Part shown: piece after piece, positions 27,527 through 49,688 of the stretch
Numbering within the stretch: position 1 is the first letter of the stretch
Layout of the letters: each line of letters starts with the position of its first letter
NCBI RefSeq assembly: GCF_963576615.1
Contig: NC_088712.1
Coordinates: 30,905,870-30,969,869, forward strand
DNA: 64,000 nt
Reading direction: 5' to 3'
Origin: Watersipora subatra
Taxonomy: Eukaryota; Bryozoa; Gymnolaemata; Cheilostomatida; Watersiporidae
Notes under the pieces: model-generated
The model's input: the letters and a program-made list of their open reading frames with translations, nothing else
What the model was told of the DNA's origin: nothing
The model's database searches: none
Translations under genes and position numbers: made by a program

Positions 27527-28917
27527 TCAAATGATCTTTTGCGACTCCAATATTTTAATCAAGGAGAGTTTTTTGGAAAGTGAGGAACTGATGTGTGGCT
27601 GTTGTTTGCTCAGAGATGGTTTCTGAATTGTCTCTATCATTGTATCTAAGACATTTTCTATTCTTGCCTTCTCATCTTCTGTCAAGCTCTCAATTTGTAG
27701 TTTCTTGATGCGCGTGAAAGCTTGCACATTGTGCCATAGGTACATCAGCATGGGCCATGGATGAGCTAGGCTTGTTTGGATAACAACATGTTTATTACTT
27801 TTTGGAAGATTAAGGCGATCAAGAGCGTGTGTTAAGCTATTAATCAGCCGATGTTTTAGAAGCTCTGGGTTTTTTTTATAATCGCGCTCGAGGCATTCAG
27901 ATGAATTTCTAATTATCCTACCAATACCTGTTTTGTCATTGATAATGACCCCACATAATAACAAATAATTAGCGACTAAAGAGGTGGTTCTTTGGCAGAC
28001 ATTCATAATCCAGCCTCCCATCAACTCTTCTTGTAGGCGAGTCATTTCTTTAATAACTTGCGCATCAACACCTGCTTGTTGTTGTAGCTTGGTTACAAGT
28101 TCCCGATGACTTCTAGAGTTCCTTACCAGCTCGGTAATTGATTTACAAAAGCTTTGTATGAGTATCGACCCTTTACACCATAATGAAGCTGTACTTGTTT
28201 TGTTTTTACACAATTTTTTAACAGCATATGATACGTATCCTTCCACTGATGCCCAAAAGATAAACACATCATGTCTGTTCGGTAAAAACAATTCAGTCGA
28301 AGATGTAGCGGGCTGCAAAGAATGACCTTGTCCTTCAACCCCTTTAAGGTTACCTCGACAACATTGAAAAACAAATATTTTTGGAATTTCAGCCTCCGGA
28401 AAGCTTCCACATATCTTATCAACAATATCCGTGACGATGTTGCGAGCAAAGCATTTTTTTGTTAGCCGATGTCGGGAATGTTTTGCACAGCATCCTTTTT
28501 TAGAAACATATTCTGTTTTCTTTTTCCGACTAAGTACCTTGTTTCCATGTTCAGCCAAAAGAAAGTCACCATTCTCAAAACCATGGGTCATAAGAAAGAA
28601 CATGATGAATGCAGGTTTATTCTCCGCGTCTTTGCCATAGCCGCATACATCTTCATGCATGAACTTGTCAAAAGAATCATTGCCCTTGGTGTTAGTCAAG
28701 TTTTCTTTGCGGAGTAAATTTCTGGGTTTGCCAAGTAAATTAAATGTTTCTCGGATCGTGGTCTCGTCTGACCCATAATCTAGAGTGTGTCGTTTGCTCC
28801 AGTCAGTCTTTTGGTTTCTACACAAACTGGGATCAAAATGCAGCCTATGTATCGTCTGTCTTACTATGACAAACAGTCCTTGTTGTTTCTTTTCCCACTC
28901 ATACTGCATCTTCAGCT
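27527..28917 (-). CDS. Caspase-like cysteine protease, large 3'-terminal exon
   Basis: First in-frame Met at 28909, giving 460 residues. The exon begins at 28917 after acceptor ATATCTGTTGCAG, so the true N-terminus may lie in an unseen exon. Family features in order: GLFVIV strand (11-16), YGSDETTIRETF (45-56, compare caspase LRETF), catalytic His109 in FFLMTHGFENG, catalytic Cys184 in IFVFQCCRGN, small-subunit strand SVEGYVSYA (221-229), GSILIQSFC (247-255), and the closing strand KQQPHISSSLSKKLS (435-449). Oddities: the arginines that bind the substrate Asp (caspase-3 Arg64 and Arg207) are replaced by Asp44 and Ala229. The linker between the subunits has no obvious Asp cleavage site. About 180 residues separate IQSFC from KQQP, where typical caspases have about 45. 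No CARD or DED prodomain is seen in this exon. Catalytic activity is plausible; Asp specificity is doubtful. Confidence 0.88.
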
Positions 28918-29275
28918 CTGCAACAGATATCTTCGTGCATGTAGGAATGTACTTCTTGTTATGGTGTATTGGCTATAAGTATGTCCAAAATAGCTTTACT
29001 AGTCACAAGAGTTCAGAATTAACCTTGTAGTAGTTATCAGTGTTTTAAAATATCCATAACTTTGTAAGGATAGAACATTTTAGAACTCCAAGCTTATCTG
29101 AAAATATTAAATTTACTCGCTAAGGTTTACTAATTAGAAACTCCTGATGTCTCTATTGGTTTAATAAACTGTATTCTAACAGTTAATTTACACGCTTGGA
29201 CTATGGTACCATTTCAAGTAACTTCAATCTCTAACCAATTATCTCTAGTAGTTTTTGTTATACTATATGTGTACT
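28918..29275. other. Upstream (intron) of the first caspase-like gene
   Basis: Expected to hold the intron that ends at 28918. No upstream coding exon was recognised. Confidence 0.4.
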
Positions 29276-29668
29276 GCTGAATGCGCGGCGTTGCACAGGT
29301 ATTAAAACAGCTTATAAACAGTTGCAGGTAATGTAGTTGCCTGCCACTTAGAATTAGCCTGGCACATTACCAATGGCTAATTTGAGTGAGCTAGTAACCT
29401 ATTGCTAAAGTTACTAATAAGAGCCGTGAGAGCAAGCTTTAGTCACACTGCGTGACACAGAATGCTATGCCTATTTTAACCGACATGATGGTTCATGTCA
29501 CTTCAAAATTCAATGCATCTCGTGTAGCTTAATTGGTAAGATATTGCCTGGCAAACCTGAGTTTCCGAGATGAAATCCAGCATCAAGCGGAAATTCCATT
29601 CTTAAATTTTAATAACTACAGCTGGACAAACCGACACACACACACAACCTTTGAAATCTATATACATG
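29276..29668 (+). mobile_element. Composite mobile element with tRNA-like part
   Basis: Head GCGCGGCGTTGCACAGGTAT, followed by the body shared with 46745-47188 (TTATAAACAGTTGCAGGTAA and CTGCCACTT). tRNA-like segment at 29520-29585 (A-box GTGTAGCTTAATTGGTAAG). Tail AATTTTAATAACTACAGCTG, GACAAACCGACACAC and CTTTGAAAT. Confidence 0.72.
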
Positions 29669-30124
29669 TACACAAATTCTCGGTGTCCTCAGTACATTTG
29701 ACCCATTCGATTTAATTCATATGAATCAATGCCAGTTTCCTACAGAATCTAAGTTGGTAAATGATTTTAATAGTCAGTACTGCTCCTTTGTGGTCTGGTT
29801 AGGCAATGCCTATGTAAAACAATCTGTCAAGACTCTGTTAAGGTGGGTCTTTTATGTGGAATGACCAAATATCGGATCATTTAAAGCCTTAGTTTTTCGT
29901 AACTGGCTAAAATGTTCCACATATTTGGTTATGGCTCCAAAAGCACCTATGGTGTTCAACCTTGACTTGACGTCATACAAAATAACTATTAATAGATATT
30001 GCTATGGGAAAGAAACAAAGCTATGTTAAAAATTTGGTTCTGCCACAACAAGTATAAATCAAGTGATGGAAATTGGTTAAAAACATTCAGACTAACTGTT
30101 ATTTTAAGCTTCAAAGCTCTCTAT
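29669..30124. other. Intergenic, nothing recognised
   Basis: No exon or repeat structure supported. Confidence 0.35.
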
Positions 30125-31902
30125 GGCTGACTAACCAAAGGGATTCGCTCATCTGCTATTACAGAACAAGTCACATGACCGCACAGAAACTTCAATCAAT
30201 TACCTGCTACTACTTGTCACCCTGACTAATCAAAGGGATTCGCTCACCTGCTATTAGAAACTAGGTCGCATAACCACATCGAAACTTCAAACAATTACCT
30301 ACTACTTGTCACCCTGACATTCCAGAGAGATTCTTTCACCTTCTATAGCCAGAGTGAACAGTCTGAGTAACTTTATACAAAACTTACCGTCCAGTATCTA
30401 TAGTAAAATTACTGCTTTATGCACGCAGAGACGGCTTACAGCTGCTTTGCTAGTACTGTCTCTATTGTTTGCATATATAATTATTGATTTACGCAACTGA
30501 GCCATGCAAAGTGACGCAGTCAAGCTTAACCTCCTGCTCATTTCATTATGGTAGAACCAGTTTGTGAACAGTCGCATTAGCCTGTGAGTCTATTAGCTAT
30601 TCAAACAATCCTTGTGCAAACAAATCATATCTCTGATGATTCTAGGTCAAGCTAAATCATAGACTAGGAACTTTAAAAACAGTTACAGCATCTGTGGGAG
30701 GGCAGCAATAACGGCCCTATCTGCTGGCACCTGTGTTCGCATTATGCCATAGCCTTGTTTTTTTCTATAACATACTTCCTAGTTCAAGGTTCTGTTCCTT
30801 GTGGGAGGAGACTAGTTAGCCCGTTTTGTCTATCTGTTGCACTAATTGACCAGTCTACTGAGTGATTGATTATTAGTTATCTATCTGTCATACACAATTC
30901 TTTATGTCTAGTCTAGTGATACTATTTAGTTATAGTTCAGTTAAGTCAGCTGACCTGTTATGCTTCACTCTCTACAAGAGAGCTCACTCTGTGAAACATA
31001 CGGTTTACATCTGGTGGATTAGCAGAAATGTCAGCTTATTCTGTCCTTTATTTGATATCAGAGACTTAACAATGAAGCTTGAAACCTATACAAAGCTATA
31101 TATGGTCGTGAGCACTAGCCTACCTTAGATAGTTAATCTCTACTAAACATTTGATTTAATCTTAATTTTATTCATCCCAATCCCAGTAAAGCAAATCAGG
31201 TTGTATGAAAAAAATAACATGAAAAATCGGTAGTATTTAAAATAGAAATTATTGTGATATAAAGAGGTCCTATATGTAGATATGTATTCAGGCAAGATGT
31301 TTATATGTGGCGAGTTCAAAGGTTTATATTCGCTGAATGTAGCTATGAAACGGTTGGTGGGATATATTCATGTAGGATAGTCTATTGGAGTAACATAGAC
31401 AGCAGAGATTCAGATATACTAGAATTTCCTAAAGCCAAGGGCTTCCGGTCATTGGTCATAATTATTTACACAAGCTGTTGCAGTTTTTCTAAAACCTTTA
31501 AATCGCTACCTGACAAATATGCAAATCAGCTAAGAGCCGTTATATTACCAATACTACCAATATGGCAGGCATATCGGTACTCATAGTGGTCTAGTTGGAG
31601 AGTAGCATTTATGTTTATCATTCTGATTTTGTGATCAAACATGATCAGAGATCTGTGTTATAAACTCTACTATAGATGTGCTATGTTCAGCCTTCGCTAA
31701 GTGAAAGATGCCTGCATAGATTGTTGTTAAACATAAGTATGAAATGCTCTAACTAGACAATATTTCTCTGTCTCACTTCTTTACTGAAGCTTCGTTTTTA
31801 AAACAATCATGATGAAGTTCTACCAGAAGACAATTTTTTGTATCTCCACTAAAGATATTGGCAGACACAATGCTGAGCGAGATGTGCCATTTTTATGGCA
31901 CT
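30125..31902 (+). repeat. Left arm of a long inverted repeat
   Basis: The reverse complement of 38121-40235 matches along almost the whole length with moderate divergence and small indels. Internal 100-bp direct repeats with TTGTCACCCTGAC cores lie at 30190-30330. The arm ends near GAGATGTGCCATTTTTATGG. Two short frames (30904-31128 and 31305-31586) have no recognisable product. The two arms surround a retroelement remnant and later insertions. Confidence 0.88.
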
Positions 31903-32154
31903 TGTAGAAACATGTCAAACATGTCAGTCATGTCAGCTGATCTATCTCCTTAGTCACAACTGTGTTGACATGCTGCCTGTATCTTATGGATGACCTTATT
32001 AATATACATTGAATATCTATGTGCCTTTCAACCTATGTTAAGCATCTATGAGATGTTTTGTCTGCGTGAAAAAACATTCAAGGGTTACCGAGAGTGTGTG
32101 AGCTAACTCTATTGCTCATTATTGCGTCTGATAGAGCCAATGTGAATAGAAAAG
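31903..32154. other. Start of the interior between the inverted arms
   Basis: No feature recognised. Confidence 0.35.
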
Positions 32155-32227
32155 GCTGGCTCTGCAGAGGCATCGCTGCCTCTGCAGAGCCAGCGATGCC
32201 TCTGCCTTTTCTGCAGAGGCATCGCTG
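32155..32227. repeat. Two overlapping perfect hairpins
   Basis: 32155-32194: 18-bp arms (GCTGGCTCTGCAGAGGCA) around a TCGC loop. 32191-32227: 15-bp arms (CAGCGATGCCTCTGC) around CTTTTCT. They share CAGC at 32191-32194, so only one can form at a time. Confidence 0.95.
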
Positions 32228-32317
32228 CCTCTGCAGAGGCTGGCAGAGCATCTAGTTTAGAGTCTGATTTGAGTCAAGCAAATCTCACACTGGTGTTTAT
32301 ACTCCAGAATAAGAGAC

Positions 32318-32495
32318 AAACATATGCATGTATCTCACATATTCAGAAACACTTTGTCTTGATACAAACATATGTATGTATCTCACATATTCAGAAACAC
32401 TTTGTCTTGATACAAACATATGTATGTATCTCACATATTCACAAACACTTAGTCTTGGTACAAACATATGTATGTATCTCACATTTTCAGAAACC
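32318..32495. repeat. 48-bp tandem repeat, about 3.7 copies
   Basis: Unit begins CAAACATATGTATGTATCTC. As 48 is a multiple of 3, short frames stay open on both strands. They are not taken as genes. Confidence 0.92.
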
Positions 32496-32534
32496 ATTCA
32501 AGGTGCCTTACTTTTACCCTTACCCATACTCTTC

Positions 32535-33797
32535 AAGGTGCCTCAGTACTGGGGATCTAGGAATGTAGATTACCTTATCAGCCGGTTCCAAAAAGTAGCC
32601 GAGGCCAATGCTTGGACAGAAGGTGCCGTGTTGCTCACCTCCGAAAGGACTTGAAAGTGACAAAAAACTGCAAGCAAGCCAACTGCAAAGAGGCTGTCTT
32701 TGAGGCACTATGAGTGCAGTTCGGTCTCTCCTCTAAGCAGGTAAGCTAAGCACCCTTAAAGCCGGGCTCCCATATCGATCGCGAGACTGTGGCGGTAACT
32801 TGCGCAGCAAAACGTTTGCGACGCTTGACTCAGCCGCATGTGTTCACATATAAGCTGCATCGCTAAACATAATCGCGTAATCAAATAAAATGTTAGTTCG
32901 CCATGTCGTTTCTATAATGGTGACCTTCATCTGTATAGTGCATTTCAGGAAGGTTTAGCCTGCGGTCTTTTGCGAAATTTGATCAGCGCTAAACTATTGC
33001 GTTGCCGCCGGCAACTACCGGCGGTACTCAGCACGTAGGTTCCCATTTCACTGCTAATTGCCTGTGGTGCTGTCGCCGGAACTTTGCGACGTATATGGGA
33101 ACCAGGCTTAAGCGAGCCACAGCCACAACCCTCCAGGGGCACGCTTGTTAAGTGGAACAATTGTTCTGGTTAGCCTACAGTGACTTGCCAGTCCATACAA
33201 AGCCGACTTGTCAAGGGAGCTATTCTGTGGCTCCGTAAACATCACCAGCTTGCAGCAGCACTTCTTGGCCATGCTCATGACTAAGCTGATAAAGGCTGTT
33301 TAGGCAAGAACCGAGTTCCTCAAGGTCAAGCCGGAGGGCAACGGAGTAGCAGACATTCGAGCGGTAAAAGGGGCTTCTGAGGAATGGATCACTGTGATCC
33401 AAGAACACATCACCGGCTAGTTGGCCTTAGTCGTGCAGCGATTGACACAACAACAGGTTGAAACACTTGGTCGACACTCAACTACCATCGGCCAGACAAT
33501 GCCTGCTTACAAAGTGCCGTTTAAAACTATGCCAAGCAGACTGGCAGCCGAGACGGCATTAGAGATTCATGAGCATCTTAACTGGGTAGAGAAAGTAAAG
33601 AAGGCTGAGTTGGTCAAGCCGGCTCAGGTCTTCTCTTGCGTGTCAGAAATCGAGTCTATTTGGTCGCTAGCCTTTGCACAGCCATCTCTGAGGAAACTAC
33701 GGATAAAATTGGCCAAGCTTACTAGCTGAGCCGAGGAAGGAAATTGTCCTCACGGATTGATATATTATTGGTTCAACCTGAGAACAGATATGTGAGA
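32535..33797 (+). pseudogene. Ty3/gypsy-like gag remnant, interrupted by a MITE
   Basis: 32535-32650 reads FKVPQYWGSRNVDYLISRFQ then KVAEANAWTEGAVLL, which resembles the start of Ty3-type Gag (a target, a residue run, then F..VAE.N.W). It continues past the MITE at 32757-33111 with stops and frameshifts to about 33797 (for example IYYWFNLRTDM at 33760-33793, which recalls the integrase zinc-finger region). GC-richer than its surroundings. No intact protein. The retroelement assignment is moderate; the exact family is not determined. Confidence 0.5.
32757..33111. mobile_element. MITE with TTAA-flanked inverted ends
   Basis: The left end after TTAA reads AGCCGGGCTCCCATAT. The right end in reverse complement reads GCCTGGTTCCCATAT, also after TTAA. 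Inner sequence is shared with 3112-3216 in opposite orientation. It splits the gag-like remnant. PIF/Harbinger or piggyBac type. Confidence 0.85.
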
Positions 33798-34463
33798 CCT
33801 TAAAGCAGTGGTTCCCAACCTGGGGGGAATTCCCCCCTAGGGGGGAATTTGGCATTTTAAAGGGGGGAATTTTAGTTTTTATAATTTTACATTTTACGAA
33901 CGGCTTTTAAGCCTTAACAAAATCCTAGATGTGTTTTCTGTTCTCATTCCTCTTCTATTACATGTATATTCTGGCTGGGGTAGTAGACCAAGTACCTTTT
34001 ACTGTACATTCATTGTAATACAGTCTGCATGTAGCTACTGTAAATGTAATAATCTTTGCCAACAATTTGGAAAAATTCCAATAAGCCAGCTTGACCTTAA
34101 TTAATGACCTTAGTAACTAAGGTCAAACTAAGGCTTGGTTTGACATTGTGCTGCTCACAGTGCACATGTATTTGACACAAGGACACACTCACTTGTCAGC
34201 TAATGCATCAAATGTAAAAGAAAAAATCTGTAAGATTCTTTGTACAAGTATAATTACATATATGCTCACATTATTGTTTCTTATTATCACTTATGTTGTC
34301 TTACTTGCTTTTCTGCAAATAAGTCACATAATCATGTATCTATTATAGTAGTAGATTAAATAAAAAAGTTTAATACAGTCCAGATGATTATTATTGTACA
34401 AACAGATACTAGATCGTTTATAATAATTTTTAGCGACCGCTTTATTTTTGCAACTACTAATTA

Positions 34464-37325
34464 GTGCAAGATGTCAAAACAAAGGCAAAGAAACAAACCT
34501 ACACTGAGAGTTACTTAGATTATGGGTTTTCGTATCTGATGAAAAACGGTCGTCGGCCTCCGCAATGTGTGATATGCCTGAAAACTTTCTCAAATGACTC
34601 CATGAAACCCTTTCAGTTGAGGCAACACTCGCAAAAAATTTACCCCACACTAGCTGAGAACGACCGGAATTACTTTTAGTCCAAAAAGCTGCAAGTAAAG
34701 AGAAGTCGACTTGATGCAAGTGGAGATCTCTATGCTCATAGTAATGCATTTCTACAGCTTCATACTTTGAAAACTAGCTGGGCAAAAATTTCAAGACATT
34801 CCACCATCCAACAACACTGTGAAGCGATGCATTGATGATTGCAGCAAGTATTGAAGAGAAATTAGTTGCTAAGATTAAAGCAGCCCTATTTTGAGCCAAA
34901 CAACTTGATGAGTCAACTGATGTTGCCAGTCTTTCCCAGCTACTGGTGGATGGTAGATATTTGCATGACACATCCATTGAAGAGGAGTTTCTGTTTTGTC
35001 AGCCCTTGCTTCGAACAACTTCACCAAGAGATGTGTTAAAAATAGTTGAAAATTTCCTTTAAAAGGCCAAGTTAGGTTGGGAGAACTTAATAAGTGTATG
35101 CACTGATGGATCACCTGCTATATTAGGATGTAGATCAGGCTTTGTAAAACAAATCAAGCAGAAGAACCCTGATATAGAAGGAGTGCATTGCTTCATTCAC
35201 CGTGAAGCATTGGCATCAAAAACTCTTCCACAAGCATTGAAATCAAACTTGGATGTGAACATAACAGTTGTGAATTACATCAAAGCATCAGCACTAAATA
35301 CCAGATTGTTCTCAGCACTATGTTCTGAAAGTGATGTCATGTTTACAACTTTGTTATTTCATACTGAAGTGAGGTGGTTGTCCAAGGGAAACATGTTAGG
35401 CAGGCTCTTTGAGCTGCATACGGTATGTCCGAGGTTATGAAATTTCTTGAAAATAAAAGCCAGCATGAACTTTTAGCAGCCATGAAAGCTGATAACTATG
35501 TATTTGAGACTGCATACCTGGTTGATACATTTGCCTAGCTAAACAAGTTGAACTTGAAGTTACAAGGGAGCAATCATCATTTCTTTGCCTTTCATGACAG
35601 CATTGATGCTTTCAAAGCAAAGCTGGTACTGTGGCATAAACGAACCTGCACTGGGAACACGGTATCCTATCCCACACTCACTGAACTATTGGAACACAAA
35701 ACCTGCTCCGGGTAGTCTAGTGGCAACCATTACTAGAGGTGGAACGAGACACGAGACGTCTCGAGTATCGACCTGTCTCGTATCGATCTCGACTTAACTA
35801 TTGCCAAACTCGAGACAGGAAATAGAACTAAAGCGCCTGCGCACGGTTGTTAAAACATGGCTTCTCGCGGTAGCAACAACTCTATATATTGTAATAGATT
35901 GCGGACAACTGCCTTATACCCGGTCCGTTACTATTTGTTGCTATTGATTATGTTGGCCACCGGGTCTAATCATGTAGTCCGGACAACGGCCCTGTTAATA
36001 TATTGTAGTTCGGTTCTGTGTCCTTAAAACAGATATCGGGTCGTATCTAATCACCCTTCGGATAATCCAATTTAATAAATAAGACTTGCGGGTAAAATGT
36101 CTGTATTTTATCATATCGTGTCTAAACACTAATCTGTGTATCGTGTCTAAACAACTGCCCTTGATAAAATTCGGGCCTTTTTTATATACTAGCAATCGCG
36201 GGTAAAAGTTGCCCGGACACTGAGAAACGAACGAAAGGCCGTGTCGACCATAGTCCGTGTTCGGCTAACAATGACGTTTTGTTAGTTCAATATAAGAATA
36301 TACGTGTACATGTATACAATAATTAATATAATTTCCTGAGTACAATTTAAATAAAATTCACACACTACAGTTAATACACAAACAAAACTTAACATTAATG
36401 AAACGATAAGAATGAAAGTGTTATCGTGTGTTCTTTTAGTTGCGGTATTTCTTTGTAGAGCGACGGCTATCGGTTTCATTACACATTACATTAAAAAGTA
36501 AGACCTATTCAATAGATGGTAAAAATATACATGTACAAAGCAATATGTTTATAATAATTATTATTAATCAAGCTCAAAATTCTTAGAAATATATAACTTC
36601 GGTATTTTAGAGCTGTTTGTGTCACTTTTGTTTACAAAAACTACATGCATATCACTATTAAAATGTTGTATTTAAATCGTTTACACCAGGTGAAAATTCA
36701 ATTTAAAAAGAAGTTGTCAATTTTATATATACCAAGTAGCTAGCACTTGTGTAGTGAAATCACCACCAAATGCTCATTATTTTACTGTCTCGTGTCCCGA
36801 GTCTCGAATTTTTACAAGACAGTGTCTCGAGTCTCGTCTCGAACTTAAAAAACCTGTCTCGTTCCACCTCTAACCATTACTGAACATCTGTTCGATCTCA
36901 TAACAGAATTTAGATGCTACTTCCCTGAGCTACCTTCGGAAAAAAAGAAGATGCTCAACATCACACGAAATCCATTTCAACGCACTGTTGAAGAAATTCT
37001 AGTGGAGCTACAATAGGAGTTTGTTGAGTTGGTTAACATTTCTGCACTGAAAGATGATCTCAGATCAATGTCTATTGACCAGTTTTGGCTCTCAGCGAGA
37101 AAAAATTCTCTACTCATTGCTAAAAAGGCAATAATGATTCTGATGCCATTTAGCTGCACGTAAAAATCCTTCAGCATTGATGAAAATCCTACACGTAGTA
37201 GGATTTTCATCAATGCTGCACCTTAAAAATGAGAAAAGAAATCGACTTGACCTTGAGAGCGACTTGAGATGTGCATTATAAAAACAAAGCCTGATTTGTG
37301 AAAACTTGCACAGAGGCATCAGCAG
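34464..37325 (+). pseudogene. Broken hAT transposase (BED zinc finger, ZBED5-like)
   Basis: 34464-34679 starts with Met and contains a BED-type zinc finger: ESYLDYGFSYLMKNG, CVICLKTFSNDSMKP, then LRQHSQKIYP (Cys-x2-Cys ... His-x5-Tyr-Pro, where the family has His). It stops early. Later pieces in other frames still fit the family: 35183-35440 (IKASALNTRLFSALCSE, LLFHTEVRWLSKGNMLGRLF), and after the nested element 36873-37320 (LFDLITEFRCYFPELP, ITRNPF, LVNISALKDDL). Several stops and frameshifts make it non-functional. Confidence 0.88.
35734..36872. mobile_element. Non-autonomous hAT element nested in the hAT transposon
   Basis: Ends TAGAGGTGGAACGAGACA (left) and its exact complement at the right. 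A perfect 8-bp target duplication ACCATTAC lies at 35726-35733 and 36873-36880. Subterminal GTCTCGAGTATCG and CTCGAGTCTCG motifs repeat near both ends. No transposase. It must be younger than the host hAT copy. Confidence 0.96.
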
Positions 37326-37616
37326 GAGCGGTCTTGTTAAAACTCATAATCTCACCCCAAACCCGTTGAGTGTACCGGAATAACAATAATGTTGACGTGA
37401 TTTATTACTATATGTGCTACTCTCAGTTATTTAACAAATAAATATATGTATATATGCTGCTGACCTACATATATGTACCTGTGTAGCCCTTTCAGTGAAT
37501 ACAATATATAGTAGGCCTATAAGTTCACACTTCACTTTTTCCAGGGGGGAATTTGTATTTGAAAATTTTGCAAAGGGGTAAAAGCAAAAAAAAGGTTGGG
37601 AACCACTGCCTTAAAG

Positions 37617-38117
37617 GAACCTGGCAAATGCGGCCTGTGATGTGTGGCTACCAGTGTTCGTAGGAACCAGCAGCCTGTGTTGCAGCATTTTGCTATTTAT
37701 GTCTGCCTCTGCAGGTACTAGCACAGCTTGCGGGGCTAGCTTATGGCACATAGGAAGACATGCCGAGACGCCGATGTGGCGATGTAGTGTACTTGATCAA
37801 CAGGGCCCGCTGAAAGTACCTCTTGTGCGCCAGAGGATAGCCAGCCGACCATGAGGTGCGATCTGACCCTCCAACACTGACTATGGCATACTACTCTAAA
37901 GAGAGCCAGCGGCCTAGCCAGCTGCTGTGAGTAAGACAGTCCAGAAGAAGAAACAACCAGCTAAGAAGGTGCCGGAACATAAGTTGACTCAGAGACCCAA
38001 GCTGCTGTGACACAACTGAGACTGTCTGGACCTCCCGAGCCTAAAGCCACCAGCCCGCCACCCAAGGAGAGGCCTGCTCCTGCTCATCAAAGGTCACCCT
38101 CACCGCAGCCGAGGATG
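37617..38117 (+). pseudogene. Retroelement remnant, possible integrase C-terminus
   Basis: Continues the GC-richer sequence broken by the hAT insertion. DVVYLINRAR then KYLLCARG (37784-37840, one stop) recalls the DV.Y.I...R...VVH..RL segment that ends Ty3-type pol. A Pro-rich stretch follows (KATSPPPKERPAPAHQRSP-like, 38040-38105). No intact frame. Confidence 0.4.
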
Positions 38118-38120
38118 AAC

Positions 38121-40235
38121 CATAAAAATGGTACATCTCGTTCAGCATTGCAAGTGTCAATATTATTAGAGCAGCTCTAAATTATTGCTTGCTGGTAGAA
38201 CCTCAACATGGTTGTTTTAGAAACAAAGCTTCAGTGAAGAAGTGAGAGAGAGAAATATTGTCTACCCTAGGACACTTATTTCGCTAGTATTTAGTTTCGT
38301 GAGTAGCACACAGAGTAAAATTTCGCTGCAACTTAATTTAGCGGCTTTGATGAGTGCGAAAATATAGTGATGTGAAAATAAATGCAATGGAACAAACAGA
38401 TTAGATTCCTCGGGTCCAGTTTGCTAGTAAGAAAATTTTTGTAATTTGCGACTAGTTTGTATTTGTAAACCGCAGGTAGAAATGTGTGTGAGAGATCAAT
38501 AATTCAATTTGATCGCTTGATGCCATTTGTTTCTTGGACTATCAATGACTTCTAAATCCCTCTATATGACGATTTTATTGTGGATATCAATGAACAAAGC
38601 TATTTAATTTCATGTTTTCGCTCATTTGTTATGATAGTTTAGTTTCGCTCATGAAATTTTCGCGAGAGGATGACTCCGCGAAAACGCGAAAGTTAGATGA
38701 CGCAAATGCATAAGTGTCCTTGGGTAGTTAGAGCATTTCATACTTATGTTTAACAACAATCTGTGCAGGCATCTTTCACTTAGCGAAGGCTGATCATAGC
38801 ACATCTATAGTAGAGTTTATAACACAGATCTCTGATCATGTTTGATCACAAAATCAGAATGATAAACATAAATGCTCCTCTCCAACTGGATCACTATAAG
38901 TACCGATATGGCTGCCATATTGGTAGTATTGGTAATATAACGACTCTTAGCTGATTTGCATATTTGTCAGGTAGTGATTTAGTGGCGCTAGAAAATCTAC
39001 AACAGCTTGTGCAAATAATGACTAATGACCCCTTGGCTTTAGAAAATTCTAGTTTATCTGAATCCCTGCTGTCTAAATTACTCTAATAGACTATCCTATA
39101 TGTCCCACCAACCGTCTCATAGCTACATTCAACGAATATAAACCTCAGAACTCGCCACATTCACACATCTTGCCTGAATATATACATGTATCTAGAACAT
39201 CTTTATATCACCGTAATGTCTATTTTAAATGCTATCCATTTTCAGCGTTATTATTTTTTCACTGCATTATTGGGATTAATAAAACTACAATCAAATCTGA
39301 CTCAAATGTTGATTAGTGCCTAGTCTCTGATATCAAATAAAGGACAGAATAAGCTGACATTTCTGCTAATCCACCAGATGTAAACCGTATGTTTTACGGA
39401 GTAAGCTACCTTTTGAAGAGTAAGGCGTAACAGGCCAGCTGACCTTGACATAACTGAACTATAACTAAATAGTATCACTAGCCTAGACATAAAGAATTGT
39501 GTATGACAGATAGATAACTAATAATCAATCACTCAGTAGACTGGTCAATTAGTGCAACAGATAAACAAAAAGGGGTAACTAGTCCCCTCCCACAAGGAAC
39601 AGAACCTTGAACTAGGAAACATGTTATAGAAAAAAACAAGGCTATGGCATAATCCGAACACAGGTGCCAGCAGATAGGGCCGTTATTGCTGCCCTCTCAC
39701 AGATGCTGTAACTGTTTTTAAAGTTCCCAGTCTATGATTTAGTTTGACCTAGAATCATCATAGATATGATTTGTTTGCACACGGATTGTTTGAGTAGCTA
39801 ATAGACTCACAGGCTAATGCGACTGTTCACAAACTGGTTCTACCATAATGAAATGAACAGGAGGTTACGCTTGACTGCGTCACTTTGCATGGCTCATCTG
39901 CGTAAATCCAAAATGATATATGCAAACAATAGAGACTGTACTAGCAAAGCAGCTGTAAGGCGGCAGTCTCTGCTTGCATAAAACAGTAATTTTACTATAG
40001 ATTCTGGACTGTAAGTCTTGTATAAAGTTACGCAGACTGTTCACTCTGGTTATAGCAGGTGAAAGAATCTCTCTGGAATCTCAGGGTGACAAGTAGTAGC
40101 AGGTAGTTGTTTGAAGTTTCGATGTGGTTATGCGACTTAGTTTGTAATAGCAGGTGAGTGAATCCCTTCGGTTAGTCAGGGTGACAAGTAGTAGCAGGTA
40201 ATTGTTTGAAGTGTCATGTAATTATTTGATTTAGT
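38121..40235 (-). repeat. Right arm of the long inverted repeat
   Basis: Reverse complement of the left arm 30125-31902, from ATAAAAATGGTACATCTCG at the inner end to the TTGTCACCCTGAC repeats at the outer end. It is interrupted by the MITE at 38265-38724, which the left arm lacks. Confidence 0.88.
38265..38724. mobile_element. TA-target MITE inside the right arm
   Basis: Inverted ends CCCTAGGACACTTAT and, at the right in complement, CCCAAGGACACTTAT. Flanked by TA on both sides. The other arm preserves the empty site (CTAACTAGACAATATT at 31753-31768), which has one TA at the insertion point. This proves a mobile insertion with TA duplication, as for Tc1/mariner elements. Confidence 0.9.
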
Positions 40236-40589: not shown

Positions 40590-43500
40590 GCTGAACCAAA
40601 TCAAAATGCATATTTTGCCCTAATTTGGCAAAACCTATTATCAGATCAATTTTTCTCTGTTTTTACAGCCTATTAACATTAATTATAATTTTGTCGCCTA
40701 TTGATAAAGATTCTAGCTTGCTGACAATTACCCGGACAAAGTTTGACTGGCTTAATCTCATTGTCCTGCCTGCAAATCCATTGTGAGTTGTTATGCCTGC
40801 TAATATTTCCACACCATTGTTAGATAATACTCTGGCAAAAGGCATTATCAGCTAGTAATATGTTTTACCTGCACATTTTGAAGACAATTAGCAGTGCTTT
40901 GTACAAGGTAATGTAGCGGAAGCTACTGCGATTTGTCTGGCTAATAACAGAGTAAGACATGGTGAATCTTTTCATATCAAATAGCGGTAATGTGAATTTT
41001 GTAGCAAGTCAACCTTTAAACTTCGCTGTTTATCAATGATAGATGATATGAAATTTCTGTTTCTGGAAAGAGAGAGATATATATTTAATTTTAACAAGTT
41101 TTAATATCCTTCCACCGATTAAGATTAGAATAAAAGAAGAAAAATAGAGTAATTTTGACACAAGGACATCATATAAAAGAATACTACAGTTCTACATCAT
41201 GCTCAGGCAAAATTAATCAATTAAATCCGAGGCATTGCTCGTGGGGATGGTCTTCCAGAAAGTTTGGCGAGAACTTGGCATATATTTACAGAGATTAGTT
41301 ACGATGTCATTCTTTTTAGAGTGAGATATCTCTAGGAATCAGGTTGCTATCCACGGTGGCTGATATATTGTACTTTGACTTCAGGTAGTCAAATTTAGAC
41401 CATTCGTTGTCTGTATGCAGCTTCTTGTAGTACAAAATTTTGCTACCCCGGCGAATCTGTAGTTGTCGAATCTCAGCTACCATGGGGCGGTTTTGCTGCC
41501 GGAGTTCGACGATGCTTTGATGTCCCTGGTGCTTTTTGAAATCAGTAGCTGCCATTCCAATTACTTTGCACCCAGCGGCTTCCACGCATTTCACAAAAGC
41601 ATCCATATAGCAAAGATTAACCATTTTTTTCATTTAGCGTTCTACTCGAGCGTGGCAACTGTCAGCAGAGATAAATGTATGGCCAGCTCCTAGATATTTT
41701 AGAGTTATTGTCTGTGCAGAAACATCCTGACTGTTCACCAGCTTGATCAATGACGTGAACAGCGTGTAGTTTTTATTTTGGACGCAGCAATTGTCCATAA
41801 AGTAGATCAATTCTTGCTGATCACGGTTTTGGTGCACAGTAGATATTACAGCGAATGCGATATCCTCGCACTTCCGTCCGGATATAGCCTCGTGCCACAG
41901 AGATGCCCCTCGTGCCACAGAGATGGGCTTCATAGTCTTGGTGTATTTGCCCATCGGTGCGAAAGTATGATGGAAGGTGACCAGACGTCTAGTGAGGCAT
42001 ACTGACTTGAATCCCGTCAGCCGAGGAAACATTATAACTGTCTGCAAGTCAATTGATCGAACAACTTTTGTAGATTCTACTGCGCTGCCATCATTTTCGT
42101 ATTCTTGTTTCGCTTCCTGAGCAGGAGCAAGATGATCCTCCTTCTTGCGGCACGTGGTACAAGAGTCAACACAAAGATCATTTTATTTCTCTTGTGGCGT
42201 ATTGTCTAGTTCAGCACACTGCTCGCACTGCTCCTCTCCCAGTTTGCTGAAGCTGATGATAAGAGCTTGCATTTGCCACTAATATGTCGAATAATAAATA
42301 GATGGGCCGGTCTTGGTGCTTTGAGTGATAATCTGAGTGTATATCTCTAATAGAAATTTTGTGTGGAAGATAGAGCTGATGTGGGGCATGTTTCCTCCTG
42401 TAGTGAGATATGCAAGGGTTGTAGCGTTTGATGTGATTGTCGATCACTTGATGTAGTTCTTCGTCAGCTCCATGTCGCTCTCCTCAAGAATCTGGGAGAG
42501 GTGAAACGCTGGATGTTGCTCCGGCTTTAGCATGCAACACTACACTAGAAGTATTGCTGTATCTAGTCGTTGCAAGATAGAACTCTTTACAGTCAATTTG
42601 CTGACATCCCCTTTCATCAGCGAGACGGTAGATGTAATATTCCTGACAACAAAACAAACCGTCAAAAGAAAAACTATCACCAAAAGACAGCATATCATGT
42701 CACAGTTGAACAATCGTTAGTTAAGTAAAACACTAGGATTCACAGCAAGATGTTGAAGACTGTTACATGTTTCCTTTTCACAATTTTTCACTGCTTTCAC
42801 ACTGAACACAAGCCTGTGCAGTTTGCGTTGCATAATATAGAATATTAACACTACTAATACTATCTTTTGAAAAGTGAAAAGTTTCTGAACTCGCCGATCG
42901 GTTCCTTGATGATAATGTCTTAGTATTAGCCTCCAGTCTTTCTACACTATAATGTAGGAAGTTTTTTCTCTCTAAGTAGCCGAGCTTCCAAAAACCTGTA
43001 TAGATTTTCACTTTTGATCTAGAATCTACTCTTTCGATACAGCGTTGAGGGCAACATCATAGAAATCTCATTTTGTGCTTCTCCACTTCATGCTTTAGTT
43101 TGTCCTTTAGAGAGCGCCTACGTTTGGACTTAGGGGGTAGCGCAAGGTGAAGACATGACGCTTCGACCTCAGATCAAGATGTCATGACAAACTGAGTGTA
43201 AATAGCTTAACTTATATCTGCAGCTGGCACAAGCTAAAAAATTCAATCGATAATTTCATTGGAAAGATTGTAACAATTGAAGATATTGTCCGGCACAAAG
43301 AAATGCTCATTGTCTTCAAAATGTGCAGGCAGAACCTATTAGCAGCCGATAATGCCTTTTGCCAGAGTATTATATAACAATGGTGTGGGAATATTAGCAG
43401 GCATAACAACTCACAATGGATCAGAAAACAGGACAATGGGATTAACTCAGTGAAACTTGGTCTGGGTAATTGTCAACAAGGTAGCAACAGATACCTTAGC

Positions 43501-43620
43501 AGTAGGTGGTAAAATTATAATAACTCTCAGTAGGCAATAAAAACAAAGATATTTTAGTGAGATAATAGGTTTTGCCAAAATAGAGTAGTATTGGATTGGG
43601 CATTTTGCCAAAGTTGCAGT
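40590..43620 (-). mobile_element. DNA transposon with about 300-bp inverted ends
   Basis: 40590-40905 and 43305-43620 are inverted copies of each other (shared blocks TAATGCCTTTTGCCAGAGTA, GCAGGCATAACAACTCACAA and TTTGGCAAAACCTATTA, read in complement on the left). Between them lies a broken minus-strand transposase-like gene. The outermost ends and any target duplication could not be fixed. Confidence 0.7.
41316..42460 (-). pseudogene. Broken transposase-like gene (DDE-type features)
   Basis: Read 5' to 3' on the minus strand. 42211-42447 has IKRYNPCISHYRRKHAPHQL and YLPHKISI. 42047-41634 has LVTFHHTFAP, LWHEAISGRKCEDIA, YFMDNCCVQNKNYTLFT and GHTFISADSCHARVE, where spaced acidic and His residues look like a DDE/RNase H-type core. 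41633-41316 begins KKMVNLCYMDAFVKCVEAAG. These motifs are familiar from intronless transposon ORFs widespread in invertebrates. A frame break and stops separate the blocks. Further decayed upstream coding may reach 43100. No formal family name is offered. Confidence 0.65.
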
Positions 43621-44480: not shown

Positions 44481-45458
44481 AAACAGTAGCTCCGAGTTAC
44501 AAACAGTAGCTTCGAGTTACAAACAGTAGCTTCGAGTTACAAACAGTAGCTCCGAGTTACAAACAGTAGCTCCGAGTTACAAACAGTAGCTCCGAGTTAC
44601 AAACAGTGACTCCGAGTTACAAACAGTGACTCCGAGTTACAAACAGTAGCTCCGAGTTACAAACAGTAGCTCCGAGTTACAAACAGCGGCTCCGAGTTAC
44701 AAACAGCGGCTCCGAGTTACAAGCAGTAGCTCCGAGTTACAAACAGTGACTCCGAGTTACAAACAGTAGCTCCGAGTTACAAACAGTAGCTCCGAGTTAC
44801 AAACAGTAGCTCCGAGTTACAAACAGTAGCTCCGAGTTACAAACAGTAGCTCCGAGTTACAAACAGTAGCTCCGAGTTACAAACAGTAGCTCCGAGTTAC
44901 AAACAGTGACTCCGAGTTACAAACAGTAGCTCCGAGTTACAAACAGTAGCTCCGAGTTACAAACAGTAGCTCCGAGTTACAAACAGTAGCTCCGAGTTAC
45001 AAATAGTAGCTCCGAGTTACAAACAGTGACTCCGAGTTACAAACAGTAGCTCCGAGTTACAAACAGTAGCTCCGAGTTACAAACAGTAGCTCCGAGTTAC
45101 AAACAGTAGCTCCGAGTTACAAACAGTGACTCCGAGTTACAAACAGTAGCTCCGAGTTATAAACTGTGGCTCCGAGTTACAAACAGTAGCTCCGAGTTAC
45201 AAACAGTGACTCCGAGTTACAAACAGTAGCTCCGAGTTACAAACAGTAGCTCCGAGTTACAAACAGTAGCTCCGAGTTACAAACAGTAGCTCCGAGTTAC
45301 AAACAGTAGCTCCGAGTTACAAACAGTAGCTCCGAGTTACAAACAGTAGCTCCGAGTTACAAACAGTAGCTCCGAGTTACAAACAGTAGCTCCGAGTTAC
45401 AAACAGTAGCTCCGAGTTACAAACAGTAGCTCCGAATTACAAATAGTGGCTCCGGAGT
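44481..45458. repeat. 20-bp minisatellite, about 49 copies
   Basis: Unit AAACAGTAGCTCCGAGTTAC, highly uniform, with variants AGTGAC, AGCGGC and TTCGAG interspersed. About 1 kb in all. Confidence 0.97.
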
Positions 45459-45719
45459 TAGCAAGTCTGGAGAGCTTAGTTCTGAAGACCATGATCCAAT
45501 GGAACTGTCTTCACCAACCCAATGAACTGCATATGATGATGATATTAATTATTGTAACATTCTTTCATGCGCAACATGAGTATAAAATGCCTTTTAAAGG
45601 TTTCAGCTGCTGTGAGCAAGATCTTGTGCGTATTTGAGATAGCTTGTTGCAATTTCCCCTTCGCCCATTCATATAAATTTCCTAAAACATTATATTATAC
45701 TATAGCATTTACAATCTTC
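45459..45719. other. Intergenic, nothing recognised
   Basis: Short frames only, no family. Confidence 0.35.
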
Positions 45720-45875
45720 AATTCAGCAAGGTGGTCAAATGACTGGCTGCAAAATGCAATATGTAAGTTCGATTCCCATTCAAAGCAATCGCTTTGCCTA
45801 AATCTTTTAACGTGGCTACGCACAGACAGACAAACGAACACAAATCTTACTATAGCAAAGATTTTTATCTTCAAA
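45720..45875 (+). mobile_element. tRNA-derived SINE-like fragment
   Basis: A-box-like CAAGGTGGTCAAATGACTGG, B-box AAGTTCGATTCCC (45767-45779), then a CACAGACAGACAAACGAACAC run like the tails of the composite elements. Confidence 0.55.
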
Positions 45876-46744
45876 CTCTTTTCTAATTAGGTCACCGCAC
45901 GGATAGAAAAATTGACAAAGAGTGTTTTTTATACTATGATTATATACTATGGTATCGCTATGATCTAGAGCTGACGTTTGTTGTTCATCTCTATTAAACC
46001 AAAAGCTTTTTAGAAAACGCGATAGAATGCTAAAGCATTTTCACACTTTACTGTAATATCTTATACTTTAATACTTTAATATCATATAATACTTTGTTAT
46101 AATGCAATGTACTATGTTTATATACATTTATTAGATTATGATCTTCCCTTCCGCAGTCGGTTATTTCGACAATGAGTGTCTTTTGGTTTAGGCTCTATCA
46201 GTGACTTCCATGCAGCTCTGCTTTCCACCTTCTCTTGTCATCTGTTTGTTTTATAATACCATATAATGCATTAATTATAATAGATAATAACATATTCTGT
46301 TATATCATACTATGTCATGTTATTATATTGTAATGTGCTATATAACAATTTATAATATGCCATGTTATATTGCATTATATTTATATATTATGTTTCTTAT
46401 ATCATATTATTTATATGTCATCAGAGTAAACAAAATAAACTAAAGCAATGTTAGTTCAGCATGTTAAGGAAGCGTTGGGCTTTGGGAGAGTATGTCAGAA
46501 ATGTGAAAACACTAGCGCCTAGACTGGAAGGCAAAGGGTCTACTTTATGGTCCCAGTTTGTGGACTGTAGGAAAAAATAAAGAGTCATGCGATCATGCGG
46601 CAGGTCTGATTAGACAATTTTAATGCTCCTGGGTGGAATAAGACCTTTAAAAAAATAAAAGGTAGAACATTGGTGAGGAGAGCTCTCCCTTTTAACACAA
46701 TGTCTTAGAGATTATGGCCATTATAAGCTACCCGCAATACCAGA
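45876..46744. other. Intergenic, AT-rich
   Basis: 46250-46430 is a degenerate TTATATCATA/TAATAT low-complexity stretch. No gene. Confidence 0.45.
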
Positions 46745-47188
46745 GGAATGCCTGGCGTTGCACGGGTATTAAAAATCAGTTTATAAACTATGAGAGGTGA
46801 TGTAGTGGCCTGCCACTTGCTACTAGCCTGGTACATTGCTAATAGGTAATTTGAGTAAGCTTACTAATAAGAGCTACAGTAACTACTTGCACTAATGATT
46901 GATCATGCATAAAACTATTCAGCCGCTCTCCATGGTGTTGCGCATCACGTTGCACCATAACAGAGAGCGGTAGCGTATTTGCACCTATATAACAACATAC
47001 ATCGCCTAGTGAATCCATCAAGCTTGTTTGGCTTAATTAGTAAGCGATTGGACTGGTGAATGGGAGGGTCCGAGGTCAAATCTTCTGTGACACGGATTCT
47101 TTATTCCAAGATTTTAATTGCTATAGCTAGACAAACACAAACGCCAATGCCCAAAAAAGCACAGACAAACTTTGAGAAATATATATAC
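46745..47188 (+). mobile_element. Composite mobile element, best-preserved copy
   Basis: Head GCCTGGCGTTGCACGGGTAT. Body with an inverted repeat around 46920-46970 (CCGCTCTC ... GAGAGCGG). tRNA-like segment 47025-47095 with A-box TGGCTTAATTAGTAAGCG and B-box GGGTCCGAGGTCAAATC. Tail TTCCAAGATTTTAATTGCTA, TAGCTAGACAAACACAAA, then AAACTTTGAGAAATATATAT. Confidence 0.78.
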
Positions 47189-47378
47189 ATCTATGAGATA
47201 CATATACAATATACATCTATGAGATACATATACGATATACATCTATTAGATCCATATACGATATACATCTATGAGATACATATACGATATGCATCTATGA
47301 TATGCATCTATGATATGCATCTATGATATGCATCTATGATATGCATCTATGATATGCATCTATGATATACGTACATCT
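47178..47378. repeat. 26-bp and 13-bp tandem repeats grown from the element tail
   Basis: GAGATACATATACGATATAC ATCTAT-type units pass into seven copies of ATGATATGCATCT. The array starts exactly in the ATATAT tail of the element to its left. Confidence 0.9.
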
Positions 47379-47910
47379 ATGATAACGTAGATTAGACACT
47401 CACTACATTTAAAGGACTCTTATTCAATAACCAGATAAAACATCCTGTTTATCAGTATCGACATTTAATTGTTTTCACGAGATTTAAATGAGAGATGTTT
47501 ATTTGCGTGCTTTTTGGCGCTCAATATTTCATTTTTTTTTTACTATTTTGGCTCTACAGTTTCTATATTTCTATATCGATTGTAAACTTTTGTTTTATAT
47601 TGCTAAAGAATGGTATTATTATTGTTCAATAGAGCTTGGCAGATATTCATACTCTCCGTTATTACGAGCTCTCTGCTTCATTTACATGTACTGTATATTG
47701 CTTACTCCAAGTTGCCTCTTATTATATAAAGTAACACAGCTTCCTTTTATTATATTATAGTATGCTATCTTATGGTATATTATATCAAATGATACATATA
47801 TACTTTATATACATTATATATATTGTATATAATATACATAGTATTTATTATATGTCTTAAATAATATAAAATATGTAATAAATTTCATATAATATAAAAT
47901 ATGGAAGTAC
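47379..47910. other. Intergenic, AT-rich
   Basis: 47750-47900 is TATATA-type low-complexity sequence. No gene. Confidence 0.45.
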
Positions 47911-48187
47911 CCTGGTATTCCGGTGTGCCTTGAGAGATCATCAGATGTAATAACTATGTGTACAATTATTCCAGAATGCTGCAAAATAGTCAATTACACA
48001 AAGGGTTAGCATGTCGGTCTACCAAAAGAGTCAATTACACAAAGGGTTAGCATGTCGGTCTACCAAAAGAGTCAATTACACAAAGGGTTAGCATGTCGGT
48101 CTACCAAAATGAATGTTGCAGATTTGAATCGTTTATGATGCAGTCTTTTTTTCAATTTGCAGCCCAGCACTTATTATAGTAAATGTC
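47911..48187 (+). mobile_element. Second-family SINE-like element with triplicated A-box segment
   Basis: Starts like 20041 (GCCTTGAGAGATCATCA) and ends CTTATTATAGTAAATGT. The segment GTCAATTACACAAAGGGTTA plus GCATGTCGGTCTACCAAAAGA is present three times at exact 41-bp spacing (47989, 48030, 48071). A B-box-like GCAGATTTGAATCG follows at 48117. Ends about 60 bases before the caspase-like exon. Confidence 0.65.
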
Positions 48188-48246
48188 GTGGCATATAATT
48201 TTGATTTTAGTCTAAATTAATTTGTCTTCCCTTTGTTTATTTATAG

Positions 48247-49688
48247 TGGCTTCTGCCAAAGGATCTGAAGACAGAATGAAATACCCCATAACCGAACCAG
48301 GTCTATTTGTAATTATTCATGAGAAGGAGCACAACATTATTTATGAAGGAGAAGATTTTCAAGGAAGAGAGCTCAACTATGGCAGCGATGAGAGACGCAT
48401 TCTCAAGCTGATTCACCCGAAAGCTGAAAAAAAGGGAATAAGGAAGCTTATCGATTACCTGAAACATGAAGAAAAACCGCACAATATCAAGGTTGGAGTG
48501 AATTTGACTAAAGGTGATGGTAAAGATAGCTTTAACTATTTTATGACAAAAGAGGTTCTAGAATACGCAAAGAAACACTCACCATCATTCGTCATGTTCT
48601 TTCTTTTGACCCACGGGTTTGAAAATGGCCGGTTCTTGTTGGCAACGAAGAACACCAAGGGAGCTTCAAGCTCTGAAGGGAATTGCTGCAATGCCATGGC
48701 TCCTGGCGATCCGCATCAAAAGAACTCCAACTGTCATGCTAGACATATCGTTCATGACATAATAGCGAAAGTAGCGACGGAATACCCAAACATTCCAAAA
48801 ATCTTTGTGATTCAAAGCTGTAGAGGAAGCATGTCTGGTATTGAGGAAAAACACAAAACTAAACCAGAGTCAGAACAAGATACTGCAAGTTTGTCAGATG
48901 GTTTGATTGAGCTTTTCATACCAGACATAGAAGATACCCTCGTGCTGCGGGCGTGTGTAGAGAGGTGTGGAGCTTGGGTTTTTTATAGAGAAGATCTACC
49001 AGAAGATTTTCCTGAAGGAGGCTCCCTTCTCATTCAAACCTTTTGTGATGCCGCTGAAGAGCTCATAAAAACTGAAAAAAACTACGAAAAGCTTCTAGAT
49101 GGCTTGAGTAAAAAGGCATCAAATGAAAAAAGCGACATTGTTGAACAGCTAGAAAAGTGTCGAGAAGATGTTACTGGAGGATGGATTATGAACATCTGCC
49201 AGCACACCAGTAATAGAGCTACCAACTACATGCCTGGTGAAATTATTTCATTACCTGGTACTCTCGGACGCATGCTTCAGCAAAGTAAGGAAAAGTTATT
49301 TAGTAACTCTAATAGCATTAACCAGAGCAAGTTGTTAAAAGGACTGAAAGGTTGGAAAACCCACGCTGAAGATCCAAAAGAAATTCAAGAACTGATAGAC
49401 TTATGTGAACACCAGAAAAAAGGAAAAAAACGTGCACTCATAATGCTTGAATATTTATGGAAAAATGTGATAGAGGCCAACCCAGTAAATCCTCTTCAGA
49501 TGTCAGCGAAACAAGCAAGAAATGCAGATACTCAAGCAGCCCTCAATAGAATAATTGCAAATATGAGAGCACATGCTAAAAAAAGAATTGACAAGCAACA
49601 ACCTCACATTAGCAGCTCCCTTTCTCGAAAACTATCCTTTTTAGAAATATTGGATTCACAAAGACGCTTAGGCAACTCTATTAACTGA
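48247..49688 (+). CDS. Caspase-like cysteine protease, large 3'-terminal exon
   Basis: The exon begins at 48247 after acceptor TTGTTTATTTATAG. The first in-frame Met of the exon is at 48276, giving 470 residues. An open frame also runs back to 48222, but that part is the intron end. Residue numbers here count from 48222. Features: GLFVII (27-32), YGSDERRILKL (53-63), catalytic His131 in FFLLTHGFENG, Cys200 in IFVIQSCRGS, CGAWV (249-253), GSLLIQTFC (267-275), closing KQQPHISSSLSRKLSF (458-473). As in the gene at 27527-28917, the two substrate-Asp-binding arginines are gone (Asn52 and Val253) and about 180 residues lie between IQTFC and KQQP, sharing GGWIMNICQ and MLEYLW blocks. The linker does contain Asp residues (220, 226). 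The last residues GNSIN come from a tandem repeat. Upstream exon and any prodomain not found. Confidence 0.88.

Follow-up and report, generated by a model that had tools for sequence, protein, structure and literature searches.

Peptidases of family C14 are known with S1 pockets of an Asp type, found in caspases (C14A), and of an Arg/Lys type, found in paracaspases and metacaspases (C14B). An Asp stands two residues before the catalytic Cys in C14B, and Asp462 of MALT1 occupies the place of the Gln in the caspase QxC motif. MALT1 reads Arg via the acidic S1 residues Asp365, Asp462, and Glu500 (PMC4357240), and caspase-1 holds the substrate P1 Asp by Arg179, Arg341, and Gln283 (PMC10088814). 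Asp specificity is regarded as the defining property of caspases (PMC11121540). In the mussel Mytilus coruscus, many caspases are reported to have lost or mutated the S1 Arg and Gln residues, for which broader substrate recognition has been suggested, some copies lack the His or the Cys, and one gene is intronless (PMC10967218). In M. galloprovincialis, Arg179 is kept in all caspases and Arg341 is substituted in two (PMC3037946). Here, we describe two caspase-like genes of the bryozoan Watersipora subatra, P1 and P2 (not to be confused with substrate P1), located in a 64,000-nucleotide stretch of contig NC_088712.1 (positions 30,905,870 to 30,969,869, forward strand, RefSeq assembly GCF_963576615.1), referred to below as the window. 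Both encode proteins that keep the caspase His-Cys dyad, and the loss of both arginines of the Asp pocket is supported by their sequences and by those of their paralogs.

Two caspase-like genes with a conserved catalytic dyad

P1 and P2 lie in head-to-head orientation with 19.4 kb between them, and each is a single open reading frame (ORF).

27527 to 28909, minus strand: P1, caspase-like, single ORF, 460 amino acids from ATG (ORF list, Peptidase_C14 profile)
48276 to 49688, plus strand: P2, caspase-like, single ORF, 470 amino acids from ATG (ORF list, Peptidase_C14 profile)

Identity between the two proteins ranges from 34 to 38% across the alignments. The original prediction, made from the letters of the window, had called them a caspase-like pair and proposed a Peptidase_C14 profile search as a check; both proteins scored above the curated Pfam cut-off of 21.4 bits, P1 with 37.2 bits and P2 with 35.7 bits, the latter scanned as a 488-residue form that begins at TTG (48222 to 49688, plus strand). 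The prediction had also placed a His in THGFENG and a Cys in Q-x-C-R-G in both proteins, and alignment to a larger family, described next, confirmed these residues.

28583 to 28585, minus strand: P1 catalytic-type His109 in THGFENG (family alignment, MAFFT)
28358 to 28360, minus strand: P1 catalytic-type Cys184 in QCCRG (family alignment, MAFFT)
48612 to 48614, plus strand: P2 catalytic-type His113 in THGFENG, numbered from ATG (alignment, MAFFT)
48819 to 48821, plus strand: P2 catalytic-type Cys182 in QSCRG (alignment, MAFFT)

The Gln of Q-x-C-R-G is Q182 in P1 and Q180 in P2. Exon-by-exon searches of the same genome (784 Mb in 239 contigs, of which C1 to C10 measure 61 to 79 Mb, with the window on contig C5) using P1, P2, and the paralogs L015, L031, and L045 recovered at least 14 distinct unbroken family ORFs, P1 and P2 included. 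These are located on contigs C2 (L010, L011, and L013), C5 (P1, P2, and L015), C8 (L044 and L045), and C7 (L019, L030, L031, L041, L046, and L047, at 20.05 to 20.13 Mb). Rows left out of the counts were L014, which encodes the same protein as L013, the frameshifted L016, a single place with an in-frame stop (L018/L043/L063), and a 64-residue fragment (L065); the row for L044 was taken from a Gly at about the position of its neighbors' start Met.

All eight family members outside C7 keep both HG and QxCRG. In these eight dyad-bearing rows, the three MAFFT modes gave 36 invariant columns among 257 ungapped ones, 36 among 258, and 35 among 267, or about 14%, and H109, G110, Q182, C184, R185, and G186 were all invariant in each mode. 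Conservation of the dyad motifs thus exceeds chance, and such conservation would favor retained chemistry in P1 and P2. Across all 14 rows, just 12 or 13 columns are invariant.

Apparent loss of the two S1-pocket arginines

To locate the two arginines of the caspase Asp pocket (Arg64 and Arg207 of caspase-3), family members were aligned in three MAFFT modes with CED-3, a fly caspase, and L001, a caspase-like ORF of the same genome, as references.

28784 to 28786, minus strand: P1 Thr42, which most likely corresponds to caspase-3 Arg64 (two of three MAFFT modes)
48369 to 48371, plus strand: P2 Glu32, which most likely corresponds to caspase-3 Arg64 (two of three MAFFT modes)
28223 to 28225, minus strand: P1 Ala229, equivalent of caspase-3 Arg207 (profile alignment, MAFFT, hhalign)
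48978 to 48980, plus strand: P2 Val235 (Val253 when counted from the TTG), corresponding to caspase-3 Arg207 (profile alignment, MAFFT)

The Arg207 column was filled by A229 and V235 in all three modes, and hhalign gave the same register for P1 and for the family profile. At E ≤ 1, a profile of six family members matched 162 distinct sequences of solved structures, with caspase-3 on top at 1e-7, and in the profile alignment, Tyr-Ser-Trp-Arg of caspase-3 pairs without gaps with the family consensus Val-Ser-Tyr-Val. Residues at this site across the family are A, V, V, V, V, A, L, L, V, V, V, I, V, and T in all three MAFFT modes, with Arg in none of the 14 rows. The earlier proposal that Arg207 is replaced by Ala229 and Val253 was therefore upheld by three methods, hhalign covering P1 and the family profile.

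The Arg64 column is filled in two MAFFT modes and gapped in the third; in both of the former, none of the eight dyad-bearing rows has Arg. C7 rows, for which the three modes disagree, were left out of this count. The residues found are a mixture of T, E, K, and D. In the globalpair mode, the gap-free register pairs the Asp of YGSD with the conserved Asp of RxGxxxD, and no register that was tried put an Arg at this position in P1 or P2. The original prediction had named Asp44 and Asn52 as the replacements of Arg64. Its residue letters are correct (D44 and A229 in P1; N52 and V253 in P2 in TTG numbering, or N34 and V235 from ATG), and the absence of Arg stands, but the position is probably two residues off. 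The idea that both S1 arginines are gone is supported by the sequence and extends beyond the pair to its paralogs.

Other caspases of the same genome

As a control, 18 caspase fragments were hand-picked from the Peptidase_C14 places listed for this genome. All 14 N-terminal fragments among them, out of at least 31 places starting at profile position 1, carry the Arg of R-x-G at the Arg64 site. L001 also has this Arg, as do L002, L006, and L007, the last three by a pattern able to find Arg only. The second S1 Arg is present in seven of eight p10 segments, comprising the four p10-only places listed plus L001, L002, and L005, with L008 as the exception. Because Pfam matches favor Arg-bearing places, the control shows that Arg-bearing caspases are numerous in this genome, not that all other caspases keep their arginines.

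The Peptidase_C14 expansion is itself very large, with at least 158 matches, counted as exons, among 494 candidate places (150 of them scored). Many are clustered, for example, at C9:13.0-19.2 Mb, C10:20.2-23.2 Mb, C8:3.8-6.7 Mb, C6:36.7-40.1 Mb, and C2:44.4-48.8 Mb. Two single-ORF members stand out by their motifs. L001 (C3:67351135-67351953) is the mirror image of P1 and P2, keeping both S1 arginines and the His and having lost the Cys of QACRG (FFDASFG). L008 (C2:69553333-69553932) has SHG, lacks QxCRG (IDANSQ), and has a p10 without Arg (GYTALHN).

A sister clade without the dyad

All six C7 members lack the dyad: the His is replaced by Pro, Gly, or Ala and the Cys by Ile or Val, and the Gln before the Cys is retained there as in the rest of the family (14/14). 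In a tree with three caspase references, C7 forms a clade of its own (100/100), as do the references (100/99); the tree does not fix the order of the other branches, and its rooting is unsure because of long branches.

Ratios of nonsynonymous to synonymous substitution (dN/dS) were calculated for close pairs by the Nei-Gojobori method, with ranges from 200 codon bootstraps. C7 pairs gave 0.57 (0.39 to 0.93), 0.43 (0.29 to 0.62), and 0.57 (0.32 to 1.03), and a C8 pair gave 0.43 (0.31 to 0.60). Since close-pair dN/dS values are below 1, the dyad-less C7 clade seems to be retained for some role under partial constraint, which suggests that the caspase fold can serve a noncatalytic role. C7 members probably work as pseudoenzymes. 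For P1 and P2, dS was too high for estimation, and the pair L010/L013 shows no clear constraint.

The places C2:22234528-22235433 and C2:22330966-22331871, which are the pair L013/L014, lie 96 kb apart and encode the same protein from coding DNA that differs by one nucleotide. That protein lacks an insert of about 100 amino acids present in the neighboring L010. Outside this genome, no relatives were confirmed in viral or genome contig collections, searched with two short peptide patterns each, which distant relatives could escape. A single-sequence search of solved structures returned no match at E ≤ 1 for P1 and one unrelated weak match for P2; caspases were reached with the six-member profile only.

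A cysteine/histidine insert after the His loop

In both proteins, a Cys/His insert separates the His loop from the helix that precedes QxCRG.

28451 to 28492, minus strand: P1 Cys/His insert CCAKHSRHRLTKKC, residues 140 to 153 (alignment, pattern)
48684 to 48734, plus strand: P2 Cys/His insert CCNAMAPGDPHQKNSNC, residues 137 to 153 (alignment, pattern)

The pattern C-x(0-4)-C-x(1-9)-[H/C]-x5-C occurs at the same alignment place in 12 of the 14 family proteins, P1 and P2 included, and anywhere in 0.2 to 3.8% of 2,000 shuffles per protein. It is degenerate in both C8 rows, L044 and L045. C153 is invariant in all 14 rows in three MAFFT modes, and C140 is invariant in two of the three. The natural reading of these residues would be a structural metal binder; in L046 and L047, the His of the insert is a Cys, a swap that a metal ligand would allow. 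No caspase family with such an insert was found in the literature listings searched, which lack most subscription papers. The insert could provide a sequence tag for tracing this family in other animals.

Gene ends, linker, and C-terminal parts

Tracts resembling splice acceptors precede both start codons.

48229 to 48246, plus strand: acceptor-like tract ccctttgtttatttatag, 29 nucleotides before the P2 ATG, suggesting a 5' exon (by eye)
28918 to 28929, minus strand: acceptor-like tract tatctgttgcag, 8 nucleotides before the P1 ATG (by eye)

The ATG at 48276 is the more likely start of P2 than the TTG at 48222, because the 29 nucleotides preceding it come after ccctttgtttatttatag. A similar tract precedes the ATG in most paralogs inspected by eye. 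The distance from tract to ATG keeps no single phase across paralogs, and the L015 tract is followed by in-frame stops; the 5' exon is therefore read as noncoding, and P1, P2, and their paralogs would each have one coding exon plus a noncoding 5' exon.

The linker between QxCRG and the next strand has no Asp in P1 and L011 and has one or two in the other six dyad-bearing rows (two in P2). None is common to all eight. Within the pair, P2 alone could hold a caspase-type Asp processing site in this linker.

Farther downstream, an insert of about 100 amino acids ahead of the last strand is present in P1, P2, L010, and L011.

27608 to 27952, minus strand: P1 extra region, about residues 320 to 434, before the last strand, absent from L013 and L015 (alignment)
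49242 to 49592, plus strand: P2 extra region, about residues 323 to 439, before the last strand (alignment)
27578 to 27607, minus strand: P1 KQQPHISSSL, which probably corresponds to caspase strand beta6 (alignment; profile, 0.1 bits alone, in one of five alignments)
49593 to 49622, plus strand: P2 KQQPHISSSL, which probably corresponds to caspase strand beta6 (alignment; profile)

KQQPHISSSL is a block of 10 residues identical between P1 and P2. A 26-bp minisatellite of 4.3 copies (window 49670 to 49781) overlaps the final codons and the stop of P2.

Explanations for the altered pocket

The explanation we prefer is that P1 and P2 are members of a caspase-fold (Peptidase_C14-like) family, with one exon-like ORF each, that has lost both arginines of the Asp pocket. 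The dyad-bearing members would remain cysteine peptidases. Their S1 pocket would be mostly neutral, with the Gln kept and Arg replaced by a small aliphatic residue or Thr, and cleavage would follow a residue other than Asp. Maturation would not proceed through caspase-type Asp cleavage, and the insert would hold a structural metal. We put the probability that P1 and P2 combine a neutral pocket for substrate P1 with retained chemistry and non-Asp specificity at roughly 45%. An Asp-specific pocket is not expected in P1 and P2, because both arginines are gone and the Gln alone is kept. A neutral one is favored for the same reasons and because acidic residues of the MALT1 type are not consistently shared. 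An acidic pocket like that of MALT1 was considered separately and was set aside in view of the retained Gln and the mixed T/E/K/D residues at the Arg64 site.

Several points weigh against this explanation. The Arg64 register is less certain than that of Arg207, as one MAFFT mode is gapped there and the hhalign alignment is confined to the last part of p20 and the first part of p10. In Pfam scans of the paralogs, which covered L011, L015, L045, L019, and L031, the first two were above the Peptidase_C14 cut-off, L045 (17.4 bits) and L019 (15.0 bits) were under it, and L031 had no match. L044 lacks the start codon of its C8 neighbors, and L010/L013 has a dN/dS of 0.97 (0.60 to 1.64), so some copies may be weakly constrained. 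The canonical controls, being chosen from Pfam matches, are biased to Arg-bearing places. AlphaFold2 models built from a two-row alignment of the window proteins had a predicted local distance difference test (pLDDT) score of 42.0 for P1 and 37.6 for P2, and a Foldseek search of the low-confidence P1 model against the PDB gave nothing at E ≤ 0.001, with a best value of 0.31 and no caspase in the best 50 of 362 matches. Because the models are poor and Foldseek gave no significant match, no structural claim is made.

The main alternative, somewhat less probable than the preferred explanation, is that all members, P1 and P2 included, are nonproteolytic modulators. They would either pair with canonical caspases via the last strand, in the manner of cFLIP-L, or associate with adaptors or substrates of caspases, and the dyad would be kept for the fold or by recent descent. 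This would agree with the lost Asp pocket, the shared beta6 block of P1 and P2, and the C7 clade, which lacks both dyad residues at dN/dS values below 1, and cFLIP-L provides a known pattern (PMC7586951, PMC11121540). However, the HG and QxCRG set is invariant outside C7, and the fold seems not to need the dyad, because C7 has tolerated its loss. Recruitment to caspase complexes would also be expected to involve a death-fold prodomain; no Pfam match to a death-fold domain, DED and CARD included, was found in three frames within 8 kb upstream of either gene, although such a domain could lie farther away or in split exons. Upstream matches to DUF5067 and NAD_kinase_C, all under their cut-offs, were taken as chance.

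Ordinary Asp-specific caspases with another Arg or Lys moved into the S1 pocket are an improbable alternative. P1 R40 lies two positions from the Arg64 site and P2 R31 one position from it, the Gln of QxCRG is kept, and R156 is invariant in the six C2/C5 rows, where the Arg of QACRG (R185) is the only other invariant Arg. R40 and R31 have no Arg counterpart in L010, L011, L013, or L015, though, and R156 is not tied to catalysis, because the dyad-less C7 rows keep it as well (nine-row alignment). Arg is absent from the Arg207 site throughout the family, and no conserved linker Asp is available for self-processing.

Equally improbable is decay of the duplicates with selection weak or absent. In its favor, L016 is frameshifted, L018/L043 has an in-frame stop, L044 lacks its neighbors' start codon, and dN/dS of L010/L013 is near 1. 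Against it, P1 and P2, at 34 to 38% identity and with dS beyond estimation, have frames that stay open over 460 and 470 codons, and four other close pairs have dN/dS values of 0.43 to 0.57.

Repeats in the window

The interval between the two genes is occupied in part by repeats. Window positions 30127 to 40215 form an inverted repeat with arms of up to 517 nucleotides that are 95% complementary, either a 10-kb element or a palindromic duplication; two ORFs inside it, at 34464 to 35440, had no significant Pfam match. Positions 40620 to 43583 contain inverted repeats with arms of 95 and 190 nucleotides (75 and 87% complementary) that flank a minus-strand ORF on both sides (41637 to 42047) with a DUF7869 match just above the cut-off (27.1 versus 26 bits), and this interval looks like a DNA transposon remnant. 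Tandem repeats are dense, with 50 Tandem Repeats Finder rows, some overlapping, across the 64 kb of the window and units of 6 to 188 bp.

Comparison with known systems

Loss of S1 arginines is not new in kind, because it has been reported for mussel caspases. What this analysis adds to the original prediction is the Cys/His insert next to the His loop, the paralog family, and the dyad-less clade. The genome holds canonical, dyad-plus/pocket-minus, and dyad-minus groups, a natural series for the separate loss of S1 specificity and catalysis, and this lets one ask whether expanded invertebrate caspase sets include enzymes of other specificity. In its furthest form, which we consider doubtful, the preferred explanation would make P1 and P2 part of a branch of caspase-fold cysteine peptidases stabilized by a metal finger beside the catalytic His loop, specific for a neutral substrate P1 residue in place of Asp, and accompanied by a sister clade of dead enzymes. 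Family C14 would then have a third S1 type, in addition to the Asp type of caspases and the Arg/Lys type of paracaspases and metacaspases. A role in stress responses or immunity is a guess that gene turnover and rapid protein change would fit.

Compared with C14A caspases such as caspase-3 and CED-3, P1 and P2 share the Pfam signature, the His-Cys dyad, the Gly after the His, Q-x-C-R-G, and sequence that can be aligned from the last part of p20 into the first part of p10. Unlike them, they lack both S1 arginines and a conserved linker Asp, carry the Cys/His insert, and have a coding part of one ORF; P1, P2, L010, and L011 further differ by the insert of about 100 residues before the last strand. 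Bivalve caspases are alike in their S1-Arg substitutions and, in M. coruscus, an intronless gene (PMC10967218, PMC3037946), but in the parts of those reports at hand, the losses are not assigned to one family and a Cys/His insert is not mentioned, whereas here the loss is family-wide and comes with the insert. The pseudocaspases cFLIP-L and caspase-12 are likewise caspase homologs without caspase activity, and absence of the dyad is a trait that the C7 clade has in common with cFLIP (PMC7586951, PMC11121540); in contrast, P1 and P2 keep the dyad, and no DED or CARD was found in the regions scanned. MALT1 and the metacaspases have a caspase-like fold with an S1 pocket that does not take Asp (PMC4357240), as is predicted for this family, but the W. 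subatra family keeps the Gln before the Cys in all 14 members and has an aliphatic residue or Thr at the Arg207 site.

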